From NCBI RefSeq assembly GCF_947500985.1, contig NZ_CANMTX010000002.1, forward strand, positions 186,001 through 250,000: a stretch of DNA of 64,000 bases. Direction: 5' to 3'. The notes under the pieces were generated by a model. The model was given only the letters and a program-made list of their open reading frames with translations, was not told where the DNA came from and ran no database searches. A program made the translations under genes and the position numbers. Every line of letters begins with the position of its first letter. Position 1 is the first letter of the stretch. Source of the stretch: an uncultured Maribacter sp. Lineage in GTDB: Bacteria; Bacteroidota; Bacteroidia; Flavobacteriales; Flavobacteriaceae. Positions 18,846 through 33,050 of this stretch are shown here, in pieces.

Positions 18846-19889
18846 ATGAATATATTAATAACAGGAGGCGCAGGTTTTATTGGATCTCATGTAGTTAGAA
18901 GGTTTGTAAAGAATTATCCAAATTATAATATCTATAATCTTGATGCTTTGACCTATGCTGGCAACCTTGAGAATTTGAAAGATATTGATGATAAGCCTAA
19001 CTACAAGTTTATTAAAGGAGATATCGTAGACGAAAGTTTTATCAATAAGTTGTTTGCTGATGTTGACTTTGACGGGGTAATACATTTGGCTGCAGAATCT
19101 CATGTAGATAGGTCTATTGAAGACCCGCTTGCTTTTGTAAGAACAAATATTATTGGTACTGTAAACCTTTTAAATGCTGCTAAAAATGCATGGAAAGATA
19201 ATTTTGAAGGAAAACGATTTTATCATGTAAGCACAGATGAAGTTTATGGTGCTTTAGGTGAACAAGGCTTGTTTACAGAAACAACAGCATATGATCCAAA
19301 TTCACCATACTCTGCTTCCAAAGCAGGTTCTGATCATTTTGTAAGAGCCTATGGGGAAACATATGGTTTACCATATGTGATTACCAATTGTTCTAATAAC
19401 TATGGACCATATCATTTTCCAGAAAAGCTTATTCCACTATTCATAAATAATATAATGGAAAATAAATCTCTTCCAGTTTATGGCGACGGTAAATATACTC
19501 GAGATTGGCTTTTTGTGGAAGATCACGCAAGAGCCATTGATTTGGTTTTTCATAAAGGTAAAAATCACGACACCTATAATATCGGAGGTTTTAATGAATG
19601 GCAGAATATTGATTTAGTAAAATTACTCTGTTCAGTTATGGACAAAAAATTAAACAGAGCCGAAGGTGAATCAGAGAAGTTAATAGCCTACGTAAAAGAC
19701 AGACCAGGGCATGATTTAAGATATGCCATTGATGCTACTAAAATAAATAAGGAGCTAGGTTGGAAACCTTCTGTAACTTTTGAAGAAGGTCTAGAATTAA
19801 CGGTAGATTGGTACTTTGATAATTCAGATTGGTTAAGTCATGTTACCTCTGGTGATTATAAAGAATATTATAAAAAAATGTATACATAA
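18846..19889 (+). CDS. rfbB: dTDP-glucose 4,6-dehydratase
   Basis: 347 residues. An extended SDR enzyme, it converts dTDP-glucose to dTDP-4-keto-6-deoxyglucose. It shows the NAD motif GGAGFIGS at 7-14, [19 protein letters not shown] with the catalytic Asp-Glu pair, YSASKAG with the YxxxK catalytic pair, and [15 protein letters not shown]. It is the second step toward dTDP-L-rhamnose, and the other three genes follow in the order A, C, D. Spacing to rfbA is 25 nt. Confidence 0.96.
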
Positions 19890-19914
19890 GTTTAACCATA
19901 TCAAACCAAAAAGT

Positions 19915-20784
19915 ATGAAAGGAATAATCTTGGCAGGAGGATCAGGAACTAGGCTTCACCCACTAACACTATCAGTTAGTAAACAGTTAATGCCTATTTA
20001 TGATAAACCGATGATTTACTATCCGTTGTCAACTTTAATGTATGCGGGTATTAAGGAAATTCTAATAATATCTACGCCAAAAGATTTACCACTTTTTGAA
20101 GATTTGCTTGGAGACGGGAAAAAATTTGGTTGCTCTTTTTCATATGCAGTTCAAGATGCTCCAAACGGGCTGGCTGAAGCTTTTATAATAGGTGCTGAAT
20201 TTATTGGCAAAGAGAAAGTTGCCCTTGTATTAGGAGATAATATATTTTATGGTTCTGGTTTGGCAAAACTATTACAGAGCAATAATGATCCAGTTGGTGG
20301 GATTATTTATGCTTATAGAGTTCATGATCCAGAAAGATATGGTGTAGTTGAATTTGATGAAAATGGCGTTGCAATTAGCATTGAAGAAAAACCTATTGAG
20401 CCAAGGTCTAATTTTGCGGTTCCGGGTATATACTTTTATGATAATAATGTAGTTGAAATAGCTGCCAACATAAAGCCTAGTCCAAGAGGTGAATTAGAAA
20501 TTACAGATATAAACAAAGAATACTTAAAACAAGGTAAACTAAGCGTAAGTATTTTGGATAGAGGTACAGCTTGGTTAGATACCGGTACATTTCAATCGTT
20601 AATGCAGGCTTCTCAATTTGTTGAGGTAATTGAAGAACGCCAGGGACTTAAGATTGGTGCAATTGAAGCTGCGGCTTATGAAATGGGATATATAGATAAA
20701 AATCAGTTTAAAGCGCTGGCAGAACCTTTAATGAAGAGTGGTTACGGCAAAAATCTTCTAGGTATTTTAAATAAAAATCAATGA
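19915..20784 (+). CDS. rfbA: glucose-1-phosphate thymidylyltransferase
   Basis: 289 residues from the ATG at 19915, the normal family length; a longer in-frame extension overlapping rfbB exists but lacks support. The enzyme joins dTTP and glucose-1-phosphate to dTDP-glucose. Nucleotide-binding [11 protein letters not shown] is at the N terminus, followed by [26 protein letters not shown] and the [11 protein letters not shown] block. The stop overlaps the rfbC start in ATGA. Confidence 0.96.
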
Positions 20785-21326
20785 ATTTTATAGAGACTAA
20801 GTTAAAGGGTTGTTTTATTATAGAACCAACTTTATTTGCCGATGATAGAGGTTATTTCTTTGAATCGTTTAATGAAGAAAGATTTAATAAAGGCATTGGA
20901 ACAAACGTAGAATTTGTTCAAGACAATCAATCATTTTCTCAGCAAGGCGTTATAAGAGCAATTCATTATCAATTAGGAGAATATGCACAAGCAAAATTAG
21001 TTAGGGTTTTGCATGGAACTGTTATTGATGTAGCTGTTGATTTAAGAAAAAGTTCTCCTACTTATGGACAACATGTAGCTATTGAATTAAGTGGTGAAAA
21101 TAAAAGACAATTGTTTATTCCAAGAGGTTTTGGGCATGGTTTCTCTGTAGTATCTGAAACGGCTGAATTTTTCTATAAATGTGATAATTACTATAATAAA
21201 GAATCTGAAGGTGGAATCATTTTTAACGATTCAACTTTAGAGATAGATTGGAAAGTAGATTCGGATCAAATTAAAGTATCTGAAAAGGATTTAATCTTGC
21301 CAACTTTAAATAAGGCTAGATTATGA
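20781..21326 (+). CDS. rfbC: dTDP-4-dehydrorhamnose 3,5-epimerase
   Basis: 181 residues, cupin fold. It epimerises C3 and C5 of the 4-keto-6-deoxyhexose. The [10 protein letters not shown] motif, [17 protein letters not shown] with the catalytic His, [17 protein letters not shown] and [13 protein letters not shown] are all present. It overlaps both neighbours by 4 nt (ATGA), a sign of translational coupling in the rhamnose block. Confidence 0.96.
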
Positions 21327-22183
21327 AAAATATCCTTGTAACGGGAGGTAATGGACAACTAGCTACCTGTCTTAAAGAAGTAAGCGAGGAGCAAGGTGAT
21401 TTAAATTTTCTTTTTGTTAGTTCTAAGCAATTAGATATAACAGATTATAATGCAGTTAATGATTTTTTTAAGAAGAATGATATCTCTTATTGCATTAATT
21501 GTGCAGCCTATACAGCCGTTGATAAAGCAGAAACTGATATAGAAGCTGCTACAAAGGTTAATGTTGTTGGTGCTAGAAACCTTTCTAAAGTTTGTAGTTT
21601 ATTTAATACGATATTAATACATATCTCAACAGATTTTGTTTTTGACGGGGAGAAAACTTCTTTGTATTCTGAGGAAGATAAGGAAACCCCTATCTGTGTT
21701 TACGGGCAAACTAAGCTTAAAGGTGAAATTGCTATAGCCGAATCTTGGGAGAAACATATAATAATTAGAACTTCATGGCTATATTCAGAGTATGGTAATA
21801 ATTTTTTAAAAACTATGCTTAGATTAGGTGCAGAAAGAGATAGTTTAGGAGTTGTTGCTGATCAAATAGGCACACCAACCTATGCCGTAGATTTAGTAGA
21901 AGTTATTATTGCTGTTATAAATATGAAAGAACCTGAATTTGGAGTTTTTCATTATAGTAATGAGGGAGTTGCTAGTTGGTATGATTTTGCTGAAGCCATA
22001 TTTGATATTAGTAAAACTAAAGTTGAATTATCACCAATAAGAACTGAAGCATACCCAACACCAGCTAAAAGACCTACATTTAGTGTAATGGATAAGTCAA
22101 AAATTAAATTGAGTCTAGGTATTAAAATACCTTATTGGAGGGAAAGTTTAAGGGAGTGTATTTTAACAATAAAATCGTTTTAG
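21323..22183 (+). CDS. rfbD: dTDP-4-dehydrorhamnose reductase
   Basis: 286 residues. It is an SDR reductase for the last step to dTDP-L-rhamnose. It shows the GGNGQLA nucleotide motif, NCAAYTAVDKAE, STDFVFDG, the YGQTKLKGE catalytic YxxxK, RTSWLYSEYGNNF and the C-terminal RPTFSVMDKSK. It ends 19 nt before the GpsA-TagD fusion gene. From here the sequence becomes visibly more AT-rich, as is common in serotype-type glycan regions. Confidence 0.95.
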   Translation: MKNILVTGGNGQLATCLKEVSEEQGDLNFLFVSSKQLDITDYNAVNDFFKKNDISYCINCAAYTAVDKAETDIEAATKVNVVGARNLSKVCSLFNTILIHISTDFVFDGEKTSLYSEEDKETPICVYGQTKLKGEIAIAESWEKHIIIRTSWLYSEYGNNFLKTMLRLGAERDSLGVVADQIGTPTYAVDLVEVIIAVINMKEPEFGVFHYSNEGVASWYDFAEAIFDISKTKVELSPIRTEAYPTPAKRPTFSVMDKSKIKLSLGIKIPYWRESLRECILTIKSF

Positions 22184-22202: not shown

Positions 22203-23564
22203 ATGAAAATATTAATTTTAGGTGGCGGAGCATTTGGTACAGCTGTAGGTAGTCAATTGGCGTATAATTCCTTAAATGAAATATATCTTTTTCAAAGATC
22301 TTCTTCTAGACATGAAGAACTGGTGAAAGAACATACAAACCATACTTATTTTCCTAATAAAAAATTAAATCCAGCTCTAAAATCTACAATTGATTATAAA
22401 TACATAAACCAATTTACTGTTATAATGATTGCCTTGCCGACTAAATTTATAGCAGGGGAATTAGAAAAAATAAAACCTTATTTGAAGAAAGATGTACTAA
22501 TTGTAAACTTATCTAAAGGTATTTTAAATAATAATAAAACTATTGTTGAATTAATTCGAGAAGTTTTATCTGTTGATAACGTTGTATCGTTAAAAGGAGC
22601 ATCATTTGCATCTGAAATGATAGATTCTGCACCAACTCTGTTGACTTTAGGTTATGATTATAAGGAGCAGTATAATATAATAACTAGTATTATAAAGAAT
22701 ACTAACATCTATATTGATTATACTACTGATATCAGAGGTGTAGAACTGTTAAGTGCACTTAAAAATATTTACGCAATTTTTCTTGGTTATGTTGATGGTC
22801 AATATAACTCAGCGAACACGAGGTTTATGATATTAACAAAGTGTTTTGCAGAGATTAAAATTATATTAAAGGGACTTGGAGGAAGGGAAGAAACCTTGCT
22901 TTTAAGTGCAGGATTTGGAGACTTAGGTTTAACAGCATTAAATGATTTAAGCAGAAATAGAACTTTGGGACTATTAATTGGTAAAGGTTTTTTTAATTCA
23001 GACTTTACTAATCATTCAGTTGTATTAGAAGGAATTAAAACATTAAATATGATTGATGAGGCAATGCCAGACTTATTAAAGAAAAGGTTGCCCATTTTTA
23101 CGCGTATGGCAAACTTTTTTAATAGCCCTTCAGAAAATAAAATGGATATTGTTTTTGATGAGTTAATGGAAAACAATTATAAAACAGTTCTTACCTATGG
23201 CACGTTTGACCTTTTTCATTACGGGCATGTTGAGATATTAAGAAGAGCAAAATCTTTAGGAGACCGACTTGTTGTAGGTCTTTCTACAGATGAATTTAAC
23301 TTGTTGAAAGGTAAAAAATGTGAATTTTCTTTTGATAAAAGAAAGAGAATGCTTGAATCTATAGAGTATGTTGATTTAGTGATTCCTGAAAATGAATGGG
23401 AACAAAAAGTAGATGATGTGACCAAGAATAATGTTGACATTTTTGTGATGGGAGATGATTGGCGTGGAAAATTCGATTTTCTTTCAGAATTTTGTCAAGT
23501 ACATTATTTTGAAAGGACTGAAGGTATTTCTACAACAAAGCTTAAGTCCATACTTAAAGATTAA
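22203..23564 (+). CDS. fused glycerol-3-phosphate dehydrogenase and glycerol-3-phosphate cytidylyltransferase
   Basis: 453 residues forming two complete enzymes in one chain. Residues 1 to about 315 match NAD(P)-dependent sn-glycerol-3-phosphate dehydrogenase (GpsA): GGGAFGTAVG at the N terminus, VNLSKGI, the catalytic Lys in SALKNIYAI and GFGDLGLTALND. Residues 325-453 match TagD/GCT cytidylyltransferase: TYGTFDLFHYGH with the HxGH site, VVGLSTDEFN and RTEGISTTKLK. Together they would convert dihydroxyacetone phosphate plus CTP to CDP-glycerol. The downstream CDP-glycerol phosphotransferase would use that product. There is no internal stop or frameshift, so this is a true fusion. I do not recall such a fusion as a described enzyme. 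Confidence 0.92.
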   Translation: MKILILGGGAFGTAVGSQLAYNSLNEIYLFQRSSSRHEELVKEHTNHTYFPNKKLNPALKSTIDYKYINQFTVIMIALPTKFIAGELEKIKPYLKKDVLIVNLSKGILNNNKTIVELIREVLSVDNVVSLKGASFASEMIDSAPTLLTLGYDYKEQYNIITSIIKNTNIYIDYTTDIRGVELLSALKNIYAIFLGYVDGQYNSANTRFMILTKCFAEIKIILKGLGGREETLLLSAGFGDLGLTALNDLSRNRTLGLLIGKGFFNSDFTNHSVVLEGIKTLNMIDEAMPDLLKKRLPIFTRMANFFNSPSENKMDIVFDELMENNYKTVLTYGTFDLFHYGHVEILRRAKSLGDRLVVGLSTDEFNLLKGKKCEFSFDKRKRMLESIEYVDLVIPENEWEQKVDDVTKNNVDIFVMGDDWRGKFDFLSEFCQVHYFERTEGISTTKLKSILKD

Positions 23565-23579
23565 TAAATTACTTTTTTA

Positions 23580-24782
23580 ATGTACTCAAATCTTTTTAAA
23601 TATTTTACTTACTTAATTTTTATGCCGTTTTGGTATTTGCAATTACTAATATCAAGAAATAAAAAACTGTGGATATTTGGAGCATGGTATGGAGAAAGGT
23701 TTTCTGACAATAGTATGTATTTATTCAAGTACATTCATGAGAATTATCCCGATATTAGAGCGATTTGGATTACCACAAATAAAGACATATTTAATTCTAA
23801 TAAGACTTTAGGTTATGAAACCTATATGAAATGGAGCCTTAAAGGTGTTTGGTATTGCTTAAAAGCAAAATTCGTATTCGTTACATCAAGAAAACAAGAC
23901 GTAAATGAATTTTTTATTAACGGATCTACTACCGTAAACCTATGGCATGGTAGTCCCTTAAAGAAAATAGGAGCTGATGATAAATACTCTCAAGTAAATA
24001 GTTTTTTTTATAGTAAAATAGTTAAAAATATATTTTCTATTTCTTACGAATTTAATTATGATTTTGTTATTTCTAATGCTGCGGTTTTTACAGATAAAAT
24101 GGCTGCTTCATTTAAAGTTGATAATACTCAGGTATTGGAAACCGGGTGTCCAAGAAATGATGTTTTTTATAATACTAAGAAAGATTCGTTCAATTTAAAT
24201 GTTCTGGAACGTTTTCCAAATGCCAAATTAGTTTATTATTTACCTACTTTTAGAAATAGTGAAACGCCTAAGAATATATTTACTCAACCAGATTTTAATA
24301 TCAATTTTATTGAAGATTTTTTAAGAAAAGAGAATATTGTCTTAATAAATAAGGGTCACTTTGTCGAGTCAAAAAAGGGAATTACGTCTACAAACCCTCT
24401 ATCTAGAATAATTCATTTAAAGGATAGTGATACTACATCTGATATTAACTTTATGCTTAAAGATGCGGATGCCTTAATAACCGACTATTCTAGTGTGTTT
24501 TTTGATTTTTTGTTGACAGAAAGACCTATGATTTTTGCAGCTTTTGATTTGCAAGAATACATGTCTCAATCAAGGGAACTTTATTTTGAATATGACAATG
24601 CTATATCAGGTCCAATGGCAAAAAACTGGAAGGAAATTATGTTTCACTTGAAGAATGTTTGGTGTGACATTAATAATAATATATTGATCAAGGAAAAAAA
24701 CACATTGTATAATAAATACCATGATGCTAATAATTCTGAAAGAGTAGTTCAATCTTTAATAGGTCTTTCAAATAAAAAATGA
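23580..24782 (+). CDS. CDP-glycerol glycerophosphotransferase family protein
   Basis: 400 residues of the TagB/TagF type. A short hydrophobic N-terminal segment (FMPFWYLQLLI) is followed by the GT-B domain with NLWHGSPLKKIG near 120 (catalytic His), YLPTFRNS, the TDYSSVFFDFLL motif near 300 and RPMIF. These enzymes move glycerol phosphate from CDP-glycerol onto a lipid-linked glycan or polymer, classically wall teichoic acid in Gram-positives. In this Gram-negative locus it probably decorates or links the repeat unit. CDP-glycerol should come from the fusion enzyme 15 nt upstream. Its stop overlaps the next start by 4 nt. Confidence 0.9.
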   Translation: MYSNLFKYFTYLIFMPFWYLQLLISRNKKLWIFGAWYGERFSDNSMYLFKYIHENYPDIRAIWITTNKDIFNSNKTLGYETYMKWSLKGVWYCLKAKFVFVTSRKQDVNEFFINGSTTVNLWHGSPLKKIGADDKYSQVNSFFYSKIVKNIFSISYEFNYDFVISNAAVFTDKMAASFKVDNTQVLETGCPRNDVFYNTKKDSFNLNVLERFPNAKLVYYLPTFRNSETPKNIFTQPDFNINFIEDFLRKENIVLINKGHFVESKKGITSTNPLSRIIHLKDSDTTSDINFMLKDADALITDYSSVFFDFLLTERPMIFAAFDLQEYMSQSRELYFEYDNAISGPMAKNWKEIMFHLKNVWCDINNNILIKEKNTLYNKYHDANNSERVVQSLIGLSNKK

Positions 24783-25699
24783 GAATACAAGTTTATTTTA
24801 TTTCCATTTTTCTATTACTCTTTTTAAGTTGTTATAAGGAAGATTCACTTATTTTGGATATAGAATTATTTCCTGATAGAACTCAAGACTTTACCTTGTG
24901 GCAGTTAGATCAGTATAAAGATGTTTCGCAAATGGGATATATAATTAAAACTGATGATGATAAAACTATTGTAATTGATGGTGGAGATAGTAATATCTCA
25001 GATTTATTATATAATTACATTTTACAACTTGGCGGTACTGTTCATTATTGGGTAATTACTCACCCTCATAAAGACCATGCAGGTGCTTTAAATTCTATTC
25101 TATCTAAAAATGAAATAAATATAAACATAGAAAGCGTTATTTATTCAAGGTTAGATTTAGAACTAATTAGAGTTCATGAAGAGCTTTCTCATTCTTTTGC
25201 CAACGAATTCTATACCCGTATTGATAAAACAGATATTCAACAGCTAGAACCATTAATTGGCGATGTGCTAAATTTAGGTGAGGGAGTGGAATTAAACATA
25301 TTAGGTATTAAAAACCCAAAAATTTTAATTAATCATGTTAACAACTCATCTTTGGTGTTTCAAGTGAAAAGTAAAACTAAAAGTGTTTTATTTGTTGGGG
25401 ATCTTGGTATTGAAGGTGGTGAAATTGTTTTAAATAATAACGAATTGGCATCTTTACAATCCAATTATATACAAATGTCCCACCACGGACAGGATGGTGT
25501 ATCAAAAGATTTTTATTCTGCAATTGCTGCAAATATTGCACTTTGGCCTACGCCTAAATGGCTATGGGAAAATAACTTGGATGCAAAAGGTTATGACAGT
25601 GGTCCATGGAAAACATTAATTGTTAAAAATTGGATGGATGAATTAGGCGTGAGCCGTAATATAGTTGCAGGCATAGAAGGAACAATACAAATAGACTAA
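24779..25699 (+). CDS. MBL-fold (ComEC-like) hydrolase lipoprotein
   Basis: 306 residues. A lipoprotein signal ends at Cys18 (LLFLSC) and is followed by YKED, matching the X-K-(D/E)2 export signal of surface lipoproteins in Bacteroidetes. The metallo-beta-lactamase core shows VIDGGDSN, the metal motif THPHKDHAG (HxHxDH), LFVGDLG and MSHHGQDG. The SHHG form is shared with ComEC-type MBL domains, but there are no ComEC membrane segments, so a competence role is unlikely. It is coupled by ATGA to the CDP-glycerol transferase. A phosphodiesterase acting on glycerol-phosphate glycans outside the cell is a plausible role, by analogy with MBL-fold teichoic acid esterases, but is unproven. Confidence 0.8.
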   Translation: MRIQVYFISIFLLLFLSCYKEDSLILDIELFPDRTQDFTLWQLDQYKDVSQMGYIIKTDDDKTIVIDGGDSNISDLLYNYILQLGGTVHYWVITHPHKDHAGALNSILSKNEININIESVIYSRLDLELIRVHEELSHSFANEFYTRIDKTDIQQLEPLIGDVLNLGEGVELNILGIKNPKILINHVNNSSLVFQVKSKTKSVLFVGDLGIEGGEIVLNNNELASLQSNYIQMSHHGQDGVSKDFYSAIAANIALWPTPKWLWENNLDAKGYDSGPWKTLIVKNWMDELGVSRNIVAGIEGTIQID

Positions 25700-25703
25700 A
25701 TTA

Positions 25704-27116
25704 ATGGCAACTGTATCTAAGAATATTTTTTGGCAATCTATAGCCGCATTTCTTCAAATATATACAGGAGGTATTGTTTTTATTTTGCTTGCTAAAATAA
25801 TGACCATTGAGGAGTTTGGAATTTTAAGTTTTGGTTTTTCATTTTCAACATTACTAGCAACTTGTTTAGATTTTGGTCAGTCTTTAATGATTATGAAAGA
25901 TTATCCTCAAAAGCTATTTCCAAATAGTGAGTATATCTTAAACTCTCTTGCCCAAAAAATTGTACTTATTGTATTTTTTTGTGGTCTATTTCTATTGTAT
26001 CTATATGTGTTTTATGCAGGTGAATGGCTAGTTATAGGTCAGTTGTTTGTCTTATTTGCTGTTGTAAGTGCTTATGTACTTTATTTACAAGCAGTATTAA
26101 GAGTTAAGAATAAATTTAAAGATGCATCATTTTCAATAATAGCCTATGCGACTGTAATTTCATTACTTGTTTTTTTAATTTATAAGGATCAATTAACAAC
26201 AATTGAATTTATTAAGTATATGATTGTTGCAAAGCTATTTCAATTAGTAGTTACTATATTATACTGTAAAGAAATTTTTATTAAAAATTGGTTTAATGTA
26301 GGGATACAAAAACATTTATTAAAATACAGTTGGTCTTATGGTGCACATTTTATTTTTGGCACATTTTATTTTACTGTCGACACACAAATAATAGCGTTAT
26401 TACTAAATGCAGAAGATGTTGCTTTGTATCAATCAATATTCAGAATAATATATATATTCTTAATAGTTTCAGACGTGGCGTCTAACGTGCTTTTGCCATA
26501 CCTTTCATCAAAGTATGCTAATGATCAATCTATTGATGAATTATCAGGTAATGTACTTTACTTACTACTTGTCTTAGGTAGTTCTCTGTTTTTGTTTTTT
26601 ACATTTTTTTACAGGGAAATAATAAATATTTTATACACTGCCGAATATATAGAAGCGTATCCTTTAGTTTTACCTTTAAGCATAGTAATATTATTGCGTA
26701 CAAGTGCTTCTATTTATGGTACATTACTTACAATTTCAAATAATCAGGTAAATAGAGTGAAGGTGGTATTTTTAAGCATGATAGCAAGTATAGCCTTTAA
26801 TTTAATAATAATACCGTATTATGGAATTGTTGGGTCTGCTTGGATAAGTGTTATCGTTCATTTGCTATTATTTGTTGGTTATCAATGGTATTCTAGAATA
26901 GATTTTCCGAAAATTAATATTATAACAGCTCCAAATGTTACTGTGGTTTTGATAGCATTTTTATTTGTGGTATTAGACAGACTAATAAATATTCATAATA
27001 TTTATTTAAGTATTTTTATGTTTGTTTTTTGGGGAATTTTAATTGCCTTTTTAATGAAAAAACATCAAAAACTAACTATTCTAAACAAAATACTCAAAGA
27101 CAAGGGTGTTGTATAA
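25704..27116 (+). CDS. polysaccharide flippase (Wzx-type)
   Basis: 470 residues with about 12-14 predicted membrane helices and the opening VSKNIFWQSIAAFLQIYTGGI, typical of the oligosaccharide flippase (MATE/MVF-related) family. It should move the lipid-linked repeat unit across the inner membrane. It starts 4 nt after the MBL lipoprotein gene and ends 11 nt before the polymerase-like gene, matching the Wzx/Wzy order. The specific substrate cannot be told from sequence. Confidence 0.87.
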   Translation: MATVSKNIFWQSIAAFLQIYTGGIVFILLAKIMTIEEFGILSFGFSFSTLLATCLDFGQSLMIMKDYPQKLFPNSEYILNSLAQKIVLIVFFCGLFLLYLYVFYAGEWLVIGQLFVLFAVVSAYVLYLQAVLRVKNKFKDASFSIIAYATVISLLVFLIYKDQLTTIEFIKYMIVAKLFQLVVTILYCKEIFIKNWFNVGIQKHLLKYSWSYGAHFIFGTFYFTVDTQIIALLLNAEDVALYQSIFRIIYIFLIVSDVASNVLLPYLSSKYANDQSIDELSGNVLYLLLVLGSSLFLFFTFFYREIINILYTAEYIEAYPLVLPLSIVILLRTSASIYGTLLTISNNQVNRVKVVFLSMIASIAFNLIIIPYYGIVGSAWISVIVHLLLFVGYQWYSRIDFPKINIITAPNVTVVLIAFLFVVLDRLINIHNIYLSIFMFVFWGILIAFLMKKHQKLTILNKILKDKGVV

Positions 27117-27127
27117 TTAAATTTTAG

Positions 27128-28291
27128 ATGTACAGACTATTACGTAATCCATTATACATTTATTTGATAGGATTTACATTTTCATTTCTAGTTTATATGC
27201 TAGATTGGAGTGCATTGTATCCAAAGATTTCTGTAATGATGATAGTTTTCTTTACTATTACGTTTATTTCTTTTGGTTTTTTTGGATTAATGGTAGACTA
27301 TCTCAAATTGGTTCGCAAAACATTCTCAAAGACCAAAACAAAGCTAATTATTCAATGTGCTTTTATTTTGCTATTTTTTTATTTGGTAGAATTTGTTGTT
27401 GAAGGTGGTATTCCTTTGCTATCTAAATTATTAAATCAAACAGGAGTCCATTATTTAGAATTTGGTATTCCAATACTGCACGGTATTTTAATTTCTTTTA
27501 ATTCTTTTCTTATAGCACATACTTTCTCCACGTATTTATCAACTAAAAATAAAAACCTTTTAAAGATAAATTTTCTTTTATATATACCTGCATTATTATT
27601 TTTAAGTAGAAGTATATTAATGCTAGGTCTTCTATCTTCTATTTTTATTTATATTCATTACTCCAATAATTTAAAGTTTAAAAATCAAATTAAACTTTTG
27701 TTTTTAGGCGCGGGAGCACTTTATTTATTTGGAGTACTTGGTAACCTTAGGTCTGGAGGCGATTATATCTATGATCAAAGTATGGCTAATGAAGATTTTA
27801 TGGAATCTTCAATTCCTAAAGAGTTTTATTGGACATACTTGTATGTAGCATCTCCACTTGCTAATTTTCAGAATACGGTTGATAAGACAGGTAAAGTAGA
27901 TAAAGATTTTGTTGGATTTATTTTCTACGAAAATCTTCCACAAATAATTTCTAAAAACCTGGGAGGACCTTTTAATATTGTACAAAGAGATTTGAAAAGG
28001 CTAATACCTTGGTTAACCGTAGGTACAACTTATGCAAAATCTATTTCATATTTAGGTTGGCTTGGGCCCTATTTACTCTTTATCTTTAATCTATTAATAT
28101 ATTTAGCGATACTATTGTTTTTAGTACCGAAGAGCAGTAGTTATCATATAACAACCTTGTCGATACTCTCGGTAATAATTTTGTTAAATATTTTTGCCAA
28201 TATGTTAGTTGTAACAGGCATTTCATTTCAACTAGCTTATTGTGTTATTTTCGCTTTTTTTGAAAACAAAAAAATTGTCATAAAATCATGA
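27128..28291 (+). CDS. O-antigen polymerase-like membrane protein (Wzy-type)
   Basis: 387 residues with about 10-11 predicted helices and a larger extracytoplasmic loop around 215-300 (MANEDFMESSIPKEFYW onward). This topology and context fit an oligosaccharide repeat-unit polymerase; such proteins share little sequence, so the call rests on topology and on the position between flippase and glycosyltransferase. The stop overlaps the next start (ATGA). Confidence 0.75.
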   Translation: MYRLLRNPLYIYLIGFTFSFLVYMLDWSALYPKISVMMIVFFTITFISFGFFGLMVDYLKLVRKTFSKTKTKLIIQCAFILLFFYLVEFVVEGGIPLLSKLLNQTGVHYLEFGIPILHGILISFNSFLIAHTFSTYLSTKNKNLLKINFLLYIPALLFLSRSILMLGLLSSIFIYIHYSNNLKFKNQIKLLFLGAGALYLFGVLGNLRSGGDYIYDQSMANEDFMESSIPKEFYWTYLYVASPLANFQNTVDKTGKVDKDFVGFIFYENLPQIISKNLGGPFNIVQRDLKRLIPWLTVGTTYAKSISYLGWLGPYLLFIFNLLIYLAILLFLVPKSSSYHITTLSILSVIILLNIFANMLVVTGISFQLAYCVIFAFFENKKIVIKS

Positions 28292-28983
28292 TGATATCTG
28301 TATGTATGGCTGTTTTTAACGGCGAGGAGTTCATAAGAAAACAATTAGTTTCAATAGTTTCTCAACTAAAAGAGAATGACGAATTGATTATTTCTGATGA
28401 TGGGTCTACGGATAAAACTTTGGACATAATTAAAACTTTTAATGATAATAGAATTAAACTATTTTATTCAGGAAAGAGAAGTATTATAATGAATTTTGAG
28501 AATGCTTTAGGCAAAGCTAAAGGTGATGTTATTTTTCTTGCCGATCAAGATGATATTTGGTACCCTAACAAAATTGCTGAAACCTTATTATACCTTAAAG
28601 AATATGATTTAGTTTTTTCAAATGCTTCTGTTTTTAAGGAGAATATATTAGAAACCACATTGCTTTACAGTGGAAATAAGAATAGAACAGGGTTGGTTCG
28701 TAATTTTATTAAGAATAATTATATAGGGGCAACAATGGCCTTTAAAAGCGCGATTTTGAAGACGGCACTTCCATTTCCATCTCAAATTTATATGCATGAT
28801 GCTTGGATTTCGTCGATAGCAGAAATTACAGGCAAAACCTTTTTCATTAATAAACCACTGATTTATTATCGAAGACATGGTAATAATGCATCTGAAACTG
28901 GAGAGAAAAGTACTAATACATTACTTAAGAAATTAAAAATGCGGTATAATTTGGCAAAAAGTTTATTGCAAAGACTTTTATGA
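28288..28983 (+). CDS. glycosyltransferase family 2
   Basis: 231 residues. A compact GT-A domain: ISVCMAVFNGEEFIRKQL at the N terminus, IISDDGSTDKT, and DQDDIWYPNK with the DxD-like metal motif. MHDAWISSIAE later in the chain is common in transferases of the rhamnosyl/glucosyl type. It should add one sugar to the repeat unit on the cytoplasmic face. It is coupled to both neighbours by ATGA overlaps. The donor sugar is unknown; dTDP-rhamnose is a candidate because of the locus. Confidence 0.88.
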   Translation: MMISVCMAVFNGEEFIRKQLVSIVSQLKENDELIISDDGSTDKTLDIIKTFNDNRIKLFYSGKRSIIMNFENALGKAKGDVIFLADQDDIWYPNKIAETLLYLKEYDLVFSNASVFKENILETTLLYSGNKNRTGLVRNFIKNNYIGATMAFKSAILKTALPFPSQIYMHDAWISSIAEITGKTFFINKPLIYYRRHGNNASETGEKSTNTLLKKLKMRYNLAKSLLQRLL

Positions 28984-30728
28984 TTTTAAAACGAAATAAT
29001 CTTACATTTATAATTCTACTAATATCCACAATTATAGCAGGTGTGCTGCTACAGTTGTTATTAGTACGAGATATAAAGAATTCCATAAAGTCTAACATTG
29101 TAGATGTTCAATTTTATTTCTCTCGTAACGTAGACTTCCGGTCTACTTTATATTACTCATTTACAGATAAGTTTAATACAGAAAATAAAGTTCAAATTGA
29201 TAGTAGTGTAAATAATGTTGCTATATTCAAGATTCCCCAAACTAATAAATTATTAACTAATTTTAGGCTTGATTTTGGAAATAAACCAGGAATTTCTTTA
29301 TTAGAAATAGATAGTATGCAAATAAAGTACGGGAATACTTTTTTAAAGCTAAAACAAAAGCAATTATTTGAACATATTTTTACCAATAGTGGTTCTGTAA
29401 GATTAAATAAAAGGGAGAATAGCATGATTATGATGCCTAATAAAGAACCGTATGACCCATATATAGTCTTTGATCCATTTGTTAAAATTATATTAGACAA
29501 CCACCCTTTAAGGCTGCCAGCGTTGTTAATGCCATTTTTAATTTTTTTAAGTTTATATATAAAGAGATGGTATATTAGGTTTAAGCCAAGTCCGTTAGAT
29601 ATATTATTGTTATTGTTTATCATCTGCATTCCTTTGAAAATTGCTTGGACAACCTTTTTGTCTATAATAATTTGTCTTTATGCAATCTCTTTAGACATAC
29701 GCGACAGAAAATTCAAGATTAAAAATCTTGAAGGTTTACTTTTAACAACATTATTTATTCTTACGCTTATAATTGGAAGACCAACCAAGTTAAAAGTAAT
29801 TGACAATCAATTAGCTTTAGTACTATTTGCAATTATTATTTGTAGTGGTATTATCAATGGACGAAAATTATCTAGTAGTTATGTCTATTTTTTTCTGATT
29901 TTAAATGCTTTATTTGTTACGACAGGCTTGTCGTTTTTACTGAATTTTAGTTCTGTTTTTGGGTTAAGTATTGGGGACTATTTTAATGAGATAAAAATTT
30001 ATAGTGGTAATATTCGAAACTGGCTTTATTATGACCATGCTGTCTTCTTAACTTTCTTTGGTATTGTAGGATTACTGCCATTAAAATATGGTTGTTTATT
30101 TAAAAATCAAAAAACAAGTGTGGTAATTTCTTATCATTTCTTGTTACTAGGTACCATAATTCTTTTTGGTGCTAGGATTTCGCTATTAGTTTATCTTATC
30201 TTTTTAATAAATATTCTGATAGAAGGAAGTTTAAAGTGGCGAATTATTTTTAATGTTTCTGTTTTTTTAATTACCGCAATATTTTTGTTTTCCTTTATTG
30301 ATTATTTTGATAGCAGTAGATTTGATTTGTGGACTGTGAGCTGGGAGGCAATTAAAGATAAACCTCTTTTTGGTTATGGGCTTGGTAGTTCTGATAATAT
30401 CCTCCATACTCCAGAATTCATGCATGAAGGAAGAGGAGTAATACCTGAATCCTTAAATCATGCCCATAATCAGTTTATTACCTTTTTGACTGAAATTGGT
30501 TTTATAGGTTTATTGTTGCTCATTATAACGATTGGTATTTATTTAAGACGTATGGCTCAGAATAAAACGATGACGATGGTTTTATTTATATTTGGTCTTT
30601 GTTACGTATTTTTAACTGAGTCCATATTACAAACCTCAAAACCCTTGTTTGTGTTATGTTTTTTATTTATGATGTTGACTAGCATTCCAGCAAATGAAAT
30701 TACTAATGAATTTGACAAAAAACCATGA
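28980..30728 (+). CDS. O-antigen ligase/polymerase-like protein with an extracytoplasmic N-terminal domain
   Basis: 582 residues. One membrane helix at about 8-28 is followed by a soluble stretch of about 140 residues (roughly 35-170) that looks beta-rich, and then about 11 helices. The large loop after the later helices has the Wzy_C/WaaL-type signature HAHNQFITFLTEIGFIG, preceded by FGYGLGSSDN. The family joins or polymerises lipid-linked glycans in the periplasm. The N-terminal soluble domain is unusual for WaaL proteins and may bind glycan. With the Wzy-like protein upstream there are two candidate polymerase/ligase proteins in the locus. ATGA overlaps join it to both neighbours. Confidence 0.83.
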   Translation: MILKRNNLTFIILLISTIIAGVLLQLLLVRDIKNSIKSNIVDVQFYFSRNVDFRSTLYYSFTDKFNTENKVQIDSSVNNVAIFKIPQTNKLLTNFRLDFGNKPGISLLEIDSMQIKYGNTFLKLKQKQLFEHIFTNSGSVRLNKRENSMIMMPNKEPYDPYIVFDPFVKIILDNHPLRLPALLMPFLIFLSLYIKRWYIRFKPSPLDILLLLFIICIPLKIAWTTFLSIIICLYAISLDIRDRKFKIKNLEGLLLTTLFILTLIIGRPTKLKVIDNQLALVLFAIIICSGIINGRKLSSSYVYFFLILNALFVTTGLSFLLNFSSVFGLSIGDYFNEIKIYSGNIRNWLYYDHAVFLTFFGIVGLLPLKYGCLFKNQKTSVVISYHFLLLGTIILFGARISLLVYLIFLINILIEGSLKWRIIFNVSVFLITAIFLFSFIDYFDSSRFDLWTVSWEAIKDKPLFGYGLGSSDNILHTPEFMHEGRGVIPESLNHAHNQFITFLTEIGFIGLLLLIITIGIYLRRMAQNKTMTMVLFIFGLCYVFLTESILQTSKPLFVLCFLFMMLTSIPANEITNEFDKKP

Positions 30729-31546
30729 CCTATAATTTAACCGTATCTGTTGTATTATTCAATACAGATGAAGAGGAAATTTCAAATATTTCTGAGACAA
30801 TATTGAGGTTAGACCTTAAAACTAAATTATTTTTTGTTGATAATTCACCAACCAATAAACTAGAGTTAGTAATTAAAAAAGACGATCGAATAGAATATAT
30901 ACATTCTGGTAAAAATGTAGGATTTGGATCAGGTCATAATATTGCAATTAAATGTGCGAAAGATATAGCAGAATTTCATTTGGTTTTAAATGCCGATGTA
31001 AATTTTGATGTTAGTATACTTAATGCTATTTATGACTTTATGGTAAAAAATCAAGACATTGGACTTTTGGCACCAAAGATTCTTAACCCCGATGGTTCTA
31101 TTCAATATTCGGCTAAATTGTTACCCTCTCCCGCAAATCTTATTGTGCGGAGGTTTATTCCATCTAAATCTTTGAAAGCAAAAATGGATTTTAATTATGA
31201 ATTCCATTTTTTTGATTTTAATCGTATTGTAGAGGTCCCTTACTTAATGGGCTGTTTTATGTTTATTAATACCAAAGTTTTTAAAATTGTCGATGGTTTT
31301 GATGAACGTTTTTTCATGTATCCTGAAGATATTGATTTAACGAGAAGAATTTATAAGCATTTTAAGACAGTATATTATCCTGAGGTTACTATAGTTCACC
31401 AGCATGGCAGGGGTTCTTATAAAAGTATTAAATTGCTATATTATCATATTACGTCAATGATTAAGTATTTTAACAAGTGGGGTTGGTTTTTTGATAAGGA
31501 CAGAAAAGAAATAAATAAGAATGTGTTAAAGCAATTTAGAAACTAG
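30725..31546 (+). CDS. glycosyltransferase family 2, rhamnosyltransferase-like
   Basis: 273 residues. A GT-A enzyme: VSVVLFNTDEEEI, VDNSPT, NVGFGSGHNIAI, LVLNADVNFD with the DxD-type site, LMGCFMFINTKVF, DERFFMYPEDIDL and HQHGRGSYKS. These blocks are typical of rhamnosyltransferases of the WbbL/RfbN group, which agrees with the rfbBACD genes upstream. It is the last gene of the uninterrupted block; a gap of about 150 nt follows before the sugar transferase gene. Confidence 0.88.
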   Translation: MTYNLTVSVVLFNTDEEEISNISETILRLDLKTKLFFVDNSPTNKLELVIKKDDRIEYIHSGKNVGFGSGHNIAIKCAKDIAEFHLVLNADVNFDVSILNAIYDFMVKNQDIGLLAPKILNPDGSIQYSAKLLPSPANLIVRRFIPSKSLKAKMDFNYEFHFFDFNRIVEVPYLMGCFMFINTKVFKIVDGFDERFFMYPEDIDLTRRIYKHFKTVYYPEVTIVHQHGRGSYKSIKLLYYHITSMIKYFNKWGWFFDKDRKEINKNVLKQFRN

Positions 31547-31697: not shown

Positions 31698-33050
31698 TTG
31701 AAGTATAGAAAAGGAAGATGGTCTAAGTTAATTAAACCTTTAATGTCTCTGGTTGATTTGGCTATACTTATTTATGGAGTATCGCTTTTTGAGATTTACT
31801 TAGTTAATCAATATTTGTTTATTGGATACGTTACACTTTCGTGGATAATTATAGCCGTCAAAAATGGTTTTTACGAAGTTGAACGGCAAACTCGTTTAAT
31901 ACAACTTTTTTCTCTGTTAATTAAACAGGTCTTAATGTTTATTGTGGTCTTATATGCATTTATAGGCTTTTTTAAGCAACCGCATGTTGGTAGAATGGCT
32001 TTAGCATCATATGTTCTTTATGTAACTACAGTCGTTTTTTTGTTTAAATATTTGGGCTTTTTCCTTTTAAAAAAATTTAGAGTTTTATTGAAAGGAAATG
32101 GTAGAAGTGTCATTGTAATTGGTGATAATGCAAAAACTAGACAGCTTATAAAAATCTTTCAAACTAAGTTAGATTATGGCTTAAACTTTAAAGCCAAATT
32201 TTCAGTAAGAGATAAGAATTTTTCTTTAATGAAGTGTTTGGAGTATGTGGTTGAAAATAATATTGACGAGATTTATTTTTCTGTTGCAGAATTGTCTAAT
32301 GATCAAATAACACATCTAGTTAATTTTGCAGAAAATAACTTAAGGACTCTTAAATTTATACCAGATAATAAAGATATTTTCGCTAGGAATTTAAAGTATG
32401 AGTATTACGATTACATTCCTATATTGTCATTACGAAAAATAGCATTACATGATTCAATCAATGCTTTTGTCAAGAGAGCGTTTGATATTGTTTTTTCTTC
32501 TGTAGTTATATTGCTTGTTTTGTCTTGGTTAACACCGTTACTGGCTATTTTAATCAAGTTGGAGTCTAAAGGGCCAACGTTGTTTTTGCAAAAAAGACAT
32601 GGTCTAGATAATCGTGAGTTTTATTGTTTTAAATATCGGTCGATGGCAGTTAACCGGAGTAATGATGCTTTGCATGTTACAAAGAACGATATGCGAGTTA
32701 CTAAAATAGGAAGATTCATTCGAAAGACTAGTTTAGACGAAATGCCTCAGTTTTATAATGTATTCTTTGGTCAAATGTCTGTAGTAGGACCAAGACCACA
32801 CATGGTCTCCCTTTCTGAAGTTTATATGAAGAAAGCCAATAGATATATGTTAAGACACAGTGTAAAGCCAGGTATTACTGGCTTGGCTCAAGTTAGCGGC
32901 TTTAGAGGAGAGATAGAGGCAGATACAGATATAATCAATAGAGTTAAATACGACATATTCTATCTAGAAAATTGGTCTTTGTTATTGGATTTAGGTATTA
33001 TTATTCAAACTGTCACAAACTTATTTAAGGGAGAAGAAAAAGCCTACTAG
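31698..33050 (+). CDS. initiating sugar transferase (polyprenyl glycosylphosphotransferase)
   Basis: 450 residues from a TTG start, chosen because no in-frame ATG comes before residue 17 and the basic [13 protein letters not shown] stretch fits a cytoplasmic N terminus. Four membrane helices fill the first 120 residues, then a Rossmann-like part, a fifth hydrophobic segment ([16 protein letters not shown]) and the C-terminal catalytic domain: [45 protein letters not shown]. It transfers a sugar phosphate from UDP-sugar to undecaprenyl phosphate and so starts each repeat unit. Topology is that of WbaP/WcaJ-like enzymes. Confidence 0.92.

Follow-up and report, generated by a model that had tools for sequence, protein, structure and literature searches.

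A fused GpsA-TagD protein in surface-glycan loci, a probable bifunctional CDP-glycerol synthase

In the window, that is the whole stretch of 64,000 nucleotides from an uncultured Maribacter sp. analysed here, a single gene encodes both a glycerol-3-phosphate dehydrogenase (GpsA) and a glycerol-3-phosphate cytidylyltransferase (TagD). This fusion is real and conserved, and it is probably undescribed. We think it very likely that the protein is a bifunctional CDP-glycerol synthase feeding the glycerol-phosphate decoration of a surface glycan. CDP-glycerol is the donor for glycerol phosphate decoration of surface sugars and, as read from the sequence, the fusion would offer a one-gene source of this donor for enzymatic glycan synthesis.

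The fused gene and its two halves

The gene gpsA2-tagD lies at 22203..23564 on the forward strand (+). Its translation is a single open frame of 453 residues with one terminal stop and no internal stops. Pfam recognises PF01210 at residues 2-154 (E 1.4e-29, 103.6 bits against a gathering score of 23.1), PF07479 at residues 176-304 (E 7.1e-28, 98 bits against a gathering score of 25) and PF01467 at residues 330-448 (E 2.7e-23). The first-pass annotation had proposed that a full GpsA and a full TagD are joined here in one gene without a frameshift. This is borne out by the one frame of 453 residues in which Pfam finds both domains, and the motifs quoted at that time (GGGAFGTAVG, SALKNIYAI, TYGTFDLFHYGH and RTEGISTT) are all located in the translated fusion.

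The N-terminal half comprises the Rossmann and helical NAD-dependent glycerol-3-phosphate dehydrogenase domains and extends over residues 1-304 (22203..23114, +), as delimited by Pfam and a residue table. We call it GpsA2, a name given here to the glycan-locus clade of GpsA, fused and unfused, that is described below. A linker of about 23 residues (305-327; 23115..23183, +), placed from the domain borders and the alignment of the fusions, leads to the TagD half at residues 328-453 (23184..23561, +) with HxGH at 339-342, K369, K371 and RTEGISTT at 438-445. Besides Pfam, NCBIfam and the alignment, solved structures identify this half: TagD structures 1coz and 2b7l align to residues 327-449/450 of the fusion with E about 1e-50. 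Solved GpsA structures align to the N-terminal part. An AlphaFold2 model of the fusion (19 rows) has a mean pLDDT of 75 and a pTM of 0.52. This model is confident in the Rossmann part and in TagD but not at residues about 195-324. Since the helical part of GpsA is poorly modelled, the distance between the two active sites cannot be placed.

With TIGR01518, the equivalog model of glycerol-3-phosphate cytidylyltransferase, the TagD half scores 181.8 bits and exceeds the cut-off of 165.4. The GpsA half is matched by many GpsA models, the best at 194.5 bits, and stays below the own cut-off of every NCBIfam GpsA model listed; the nearest ones are NF000942 (194.5 versus 257 bits) and NF000940 (169.4 versus 202). 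It is thus a divergent GpsA. Identity to the housekeeping GpsA of the host is 28-29%, and because of this low value and the cut-offs not reached a shifted substrate or cofactor is possible. All 12 fusions introduced below match TIGR01518 as well as GpsA models with E 1e-20 or better.

Within the 29 GpsA2 rows, 12 fused and 17 unfused, K105, K187, N188, D240, S250, R251, N252 and R253 are invariant; T244 is kept in 28 rows and replaced by S in one. The positions K105, K187, N188, D240, R251, N252 and R253 correspond to the catalytic lysines, asparagine, aspartate and arginines of GpsA. In the TagD half (TagD numbering) D11, H14, H17, K44, K46, R55, D94, R113, T114, S118 and T119 are present in 12 of 12 fusions, and so are G16 and G116 of the HxGH and RTxGISTT motifs. 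Exceptions to RTxGISTT are V at position 117 and S at position 120, in one fusion each and both in G189. For the TagD of Bacillus subtilis, the available part of PMC8262930 names His14, His17, Arg113, Lys44 and Lys46 as functional residues. Arg63 of the dimer-interface motif RYVDEVI is absent from all 12 fusions, and among the 19 standalone rows (TagD or TagD-like) 6 have it; three of the other 13 descend from fused forms. As most standalone rows are also without Arg63, it is no defining residue of the family. Of the same motif, D66 is kept in 11 of the 12 fusions.

A loss of catalytic residues on alignment had been named as one way to refute the initial reading. The tested catalytic residues are kept in both halves of all 12 fusions. 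Because two complete domains in one chain retain them, the enzyme in the glycan locus would probably lead from dihydroxyacetone phosphate (DHAP) to CDP-glycerol, as originally claimed.

Occurrence in related genomes

It had been suggested to search for other proteins with both domains in one chain and to map their neighbourhoods. The search yielded 12 distinct genomes with the fusion, the window included (G000, G308, G076, G251, G189, G733, G844, G955, G1011, G967, G829 and G839), and the fused gene mostly lies close to a PF04464 or LicD gene. The genomes are spread over 8 genera in 3 families of a single order, and the proteins are 51-97% identical; outside the window's genus the identity to the window protein is 51-59%. 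In overlapping samples, all drawn within the window's own phylum, the fusion occurs in 2 of 36 genomes of the genus sample, 4 of 299 and 5 of 397 genomes of two family samples, 8 of 395 genomes of the order sample and 1 of 395 genomes of the phylum sample. In the large samples four or five candidates were scored per genome, hence misses are possible. The genus of G076 gave 1 of 11 genomes and the genus of G189 1 of 1, both already known.

Adjacent gpsA and tagD genes would be a natural order in such a locus, and a sequencing or assembly error might have merged the two neighbours. We set this explanation, which was itself listed beforehand as a potential refutation, aside with near certainty. 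The same joint is found in 12 genomes, with a linker of similar length and with the tested catalytic residues kept, which rules out a frameshift, a sequencing error or an assembly join. Moreover, a Maribacter MAG (L001, counted with G308 as one genome) has the same intact frame at 97% protein identity. Its codon differences to the window are mostly silent, 49 against 12 replacing ones overall, and silent changes dominate both halves (silent/replacing: GpsA 31/8, linker 2/1, TagD 16/3). Thus, the fusion of GpsA and TagD is a genuine gene.

Among mobile elements, none of the 140 matching phage records and none of the 158 matching plasmid records covers 80% of the fusion query in one place. Viral contigs searched with the window protein gave no fusion; with the fusion alignment as query we obtained 12 loci with the TagD part only, and with the GpsA alignment 7 loci with GpsA only. 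Genome contigs were scanned with six short exact peptides, which returned a near-identical relative and six lone TagDs, and owing to this type of query the scan is uninformative on distant fusions. Two contigs of the viral collection carry other arrangements. In L177:9-2393 glycosyltransferase domains of families 1 and 2 are followed by a TagD-like domain in one frame of 795 residues, and in L192:738-2990 a TagD-like gene and a GpsA gene lie about 765 bases apart on opposite strands.

The surrounding glycan locus

Upstream of the fusion are four genes of the dTDP-rhamnose type, rmlB, rmlA, rmlC and rmlD (18846..22183, +; open frames named by eye), with 19 bases between the preceding gene and the fusion. 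Downstream, 15 bases separate the fusion's stop codon from the gene of a TagF-like CDP-glycerol:glycerophosphotransferase of 400 aa (23580..24782, +; PF04464, E 2.3e-66). It is followed by a metallo-beta-lactamase-fold protein (24779..25699, +; PF00753) with an N-terminus that looks lipoprotein-like by eye, a Wzx-type flippase (25704..27116, +; PF01943) and a possible Wzy-type repeat-unit polymerase (27128..28291, +), which has no Pfam match and scores 30.3 bits with TIGR04370, below the cut-off of 40. The row continues with a family 2 glycosyltransferase (28288..28983, +; PF00535), an O-antigen ligase/polymerase-like membrane protein (28980..30728, +; PF04932), another family 2 glycosyltransferase (30725..31546, +; PF00535) and an initiating sugar-phosphate transferase (31698..33050, +; PF02397). 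As a guess, the metallo-beta-lactamase-fold protein may serve as a phosphodiesterase on the decorated glycan.

We suggest that the pathway proceeds in three steps. The GpsA2 half would reduce dihydroxyacetone phosphate with NAD(P)H to sn-glycerol-3-phosphate. Then, the TagD half would convert sn-glycerol-3-phosphate and CTP to CDP-glycerol. Finally, the adjoining TagF-like transferase would pass glycerol phosphate from CDP-glycerol to the repeat unit of the glycan of this Wzx/Wzy-type locus. We infer both activities, the substrates and the acceptor glycan of this pathway.

Within two genes of the fusion there is a PF04464 gene in 9 of the 12 genomes (window, G308, G251 on both sides, G733, G844, G955, G1011, G967 and G829) and a LicD gene in one (G189), together 10 of 12. 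For G839 the same contig carries the PF04464 gene at a distance of about 15 kb. Custom profiles, built from 13 TagF-like and 4 LicD-like proteins, found neither a PF04464-like nor a LicD-like gene in the roughly 59 kb surrounding the fusion of G076; this genome has a weak PF04464 match of 59 bits on another contig. At the 17 unfused GpsA2 loci no PF04464 or LicD gene was seen within two genes, two of these loci (L091, L092) meeting the contig end just downstream. When 15 of these loci (all but L095 and L105) were searched with a TagF-like profile, the single match, of 14 bits, was in L089, to a gene which is a sugar epimerase by Pfam. Genome-wide, PF04464 matches above the cut-off occur in 11 of the 12 fusion genomes versus 2 of 17 genomes with unfused GpsA2; Fisher values for this association are descriptive only because the rows are related.

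Of 14 gene pairs compared between the window and L001, none is as conserved as the fusion, which has 97% protein identity and 87% of four-fold sites identical. For the rmlD beside it the values are 79% and 51%. That the fusion is so much more conserved than its neighbour is a hint of recombination at the locus.

Origin of the fusion

A GpsA tree of 58 rows unites all glycan-locus proteins, 12 fused and 17 unfused, in a single clade (100/100), the GpsA2 clade. The 29 other GpsA rows, which include the housekeeping copies of five fusion hosts, fall outside. Seven of the 12 fused proteins branch outside a group of 20, to which 15 of the 17 unfused rows belong, and the two remaining unfused rows (G1050 and G916) are also early-branching in the clade. 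The tree requires at least four changes between the fused and the unfused state, three of them by well-supported branches alone. As long branches meet at the base of the clade, its inner root is uncertain. Judged from these sequences, loss of TagD or repeated fusion may each explain the pattern.

The TagD tree has 31 rows. Here the 12 fused and three standalone TagDs make up one clade (100/99), and thus the TagD half has a single source among the sampled rows. A clade of fused TagDs devoid of standalone members is rejected (AU p 0.0047), with L101, L102 and L104 falling inside. The TagD half has thus returned to a gene of its own on at least one occasion, in the family f64. The three standalone genes descended from the fused form are L101:6790-7197, L102:1078-1485 and L104:6941-7348, with a TagF-like gene near each; in L101 the standalone TagD gene now comes after a gene identified by eye as mnmE.

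Each of the 12 fusion genomes has a close TagD (64-100% identical). Where GpsA2 is unfused (17 genomes), the best TagD match is at most 44% identical, one genome having none. Up to 600 bases downstream of the 17 unfused genes we found no convincing TagD remnant among the best two matches each (lowest E 0.03); the scanned stretch was shortened by a contig end in G947 and G951 and taken behind the whole frame of 846 residues in G916. In f64 a gene of 617-622 residues directly precedes the fusion in three of four genomes and the unfused GpsA2 in 14 of 15, the 15th unfused gene being near a contig end. In L078 this gene is sugar-nucleotide dehydratase-like (PF02719).

Several loci of relatives deserve mention. 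L087-L100, from the order sample and mostly of f64, have unfused GpsA2 in surface-glycan loci, as sole GpsA found and with glycerol kinase not found. Two unfused loci (L094:752-2039 and L095:8551-9838) have a TagD-like gene, 40-42% identical, beside a LicD-like gene and possibly represent a three-gene version of the same CDP-glycerol pathway. In L105:4402-6942 GpsA2 belongs to a long frame (846 residues) that matches nothing in Pfam over its C-terminal half; this sequence has N letters. In its relative L103 (G1050), for which frame sizes of 847 and 317 were both obtained, a stop separates the two parts. Five Flavobacteriaceae genomes (L054-L058) share a row of genes of about 614, 311, 400 and 1077 residues and then a GpsA-like gene (between 8334 and 10737) of 333 residues, which is 29-32% identical to the GpsA half of the fusion.

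Supply of glycerol-3-phosphate

We searched for a conventional GpsA with the housekeeping GpsA of the window's host (E 1e-10). Seven fusion genomes (G000, G308, G076, G251, G189, G733 and G829) have such a second GpsA, in G251 in pieces on two contigs. GpsA2 is the sole GpsA found in the four f64 fusion genomes, in G839 (68% complete) and in all 17 genomes with the unfused gene. The four f64 genomes G844, G955, G1011 and G967 are small and 98, 73, 90 and 69% complete, respectively. Glycerol kinase exceeds the cut-off in 6 of the 29 genomes, G000 included, and has no match in the 19 f64 genomes, several of which are incomplete.

This distribution bears on the possibility that only the TagD half matters for CDP-glycerol, with GpsA2 being a regulatory or structural passenger or having shifted to another ketose or keto-polyol phosphate and thereby to another CDP-polyol. 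The half is indeed divergent and below the curated cut-offs, and a long branch (2.65 changes per column) leads to the GpsA2 clade. Yet the tested residues are kept throughout the clade bar the one T/S change, the TagD half scores above the glycerol-3-phosphate cut-off and GpsA2 is the only GpsA found in f64, as one expects of a working glycerol-3-phosphate dehydrogenase. We therefore regard such a passenger or shifted role as improbable and retain the bifunctional CDP-glycerol synthase.

A further suggestion was that the fusion possibly channels glycerol-3-phosphate from one site to the other and so away from phospholipid synthesis into the glycan. Consecutive steps are physically joined, and besides the fusion the genome of the window encodes another GpsA and a glycerol kinase, so that a dedicated supply of glycerol-3-phosphate is plausible and a private one would be sensible there. 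However, G844, G955, G1011 and G967 yielded no GpsA besides the fusion and no glycerol kinase; if this holds, the fusion would also have to supply the lipids, which argues against obligate channelling. Also the closest functional parallel, Bcs1, speaks against it: as listed among the references in the available part of PMC10299916, the paper of Zolli et al. on this enzyme bears 'without substrate channeling' in its title. All in all, channelling appears unlikely, if somewhat less so than the passenger role.

Tentatively, we propose that in f64 the sole GpsA of the cell sits in a surface-glycan locus, in some species fused to TagD, and might there form a branch point between lipids and glycan, and that the larger-genome relatives, for example the Maribacter-like host of the window, keep a dedicated extra copy. 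We hold this for a serious possibility rather than the expected outcome. If true, the lipid supply of f64 would be tied to a variable surface locus. The tree is compatible with either direction of movement of the fusion between f64 and the larger-genome groups. The question then arises how glycerol-3-phosphate is split between lipids and glycan where the fusion is the only GpsA.

Comparison with known systems

The first annotation knew of no description of the fusion, and we likewise found no description of it in the literature, as far as the parts of texts available to us go and with subscription journals mostly outside the coverage. PMC7356198 has TagD, GpsA and CDP-glycerol together; in its available part gpsA is a housekeeping marker gene and a separate cytidylyltransferase gene appears elsewhere in the text. 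The available parts of PMC10434189 and PMC3210612 have nothing on a fusion of GpsA and TagD. For Actinobacillus Cps3B/Cps7B and Campylobacter HS1.11 (HS:1), the text at hand presents the cytidylyltransferase as an enzyme of its own.

With the GpsA family the N-terminal half shares the Pfam domains and the tested residues, but it forms a distinct clade, is far from the GpsA of its host and is joined to TagD. With TagD/TarD/GCT (TIGR01518) the C-terminal half shares the motifs and a score above the curated cut-off; the TagD of B. subtilis, in contrast, is a chain of 129 residues (1coz). HldE and other CTP_transf_like fusions likewise carry a cytidylyltransferase-fold domain C-terminal to another enzyme of the same pathway, whereas the HldE model NF008454 scores only 57.6 bits on the fusion against a cut-off of 521.

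The nearest functional parallel is Bcs1, in which one chain also combines reduction of a ketose phosphate with activation of the polyol phosphate by CTP. This CDP-ribitol synthase is also named Acs1 and consists of a TarI/IspD-type cytidylyltransferase and a TarJ-type reductase, hence of other folds in another domain order. This make-up is not matched by our protein, for which Pfam gives GpsA and CTP_transf_like domains. The substrates differ as well, ribulose-5-phosphate and ribitol versus DHAP and glycerol: in Haemophilus influenzae Bcs1 uses ribulose-5-phosphate and NADPH and then CTP to make CDP-ribitol for the capsule polymerase, according to the available part of PMC10299916.

In summary, the two reactions, the two families and the overall design of reductase plus cytidylyltransferase are already known. 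New are the combination of GpsA and TagD, the separate clade of this GpsA and the finding that some genomes show no other GpsA. The fusion would be a second pathway to a surface-glycan donor with reductase and cytidylyltransferase in one chain and, since its parts are apparently unrelated to those of Bcs1, this design would have emerged both for ribitol and for glycerol.
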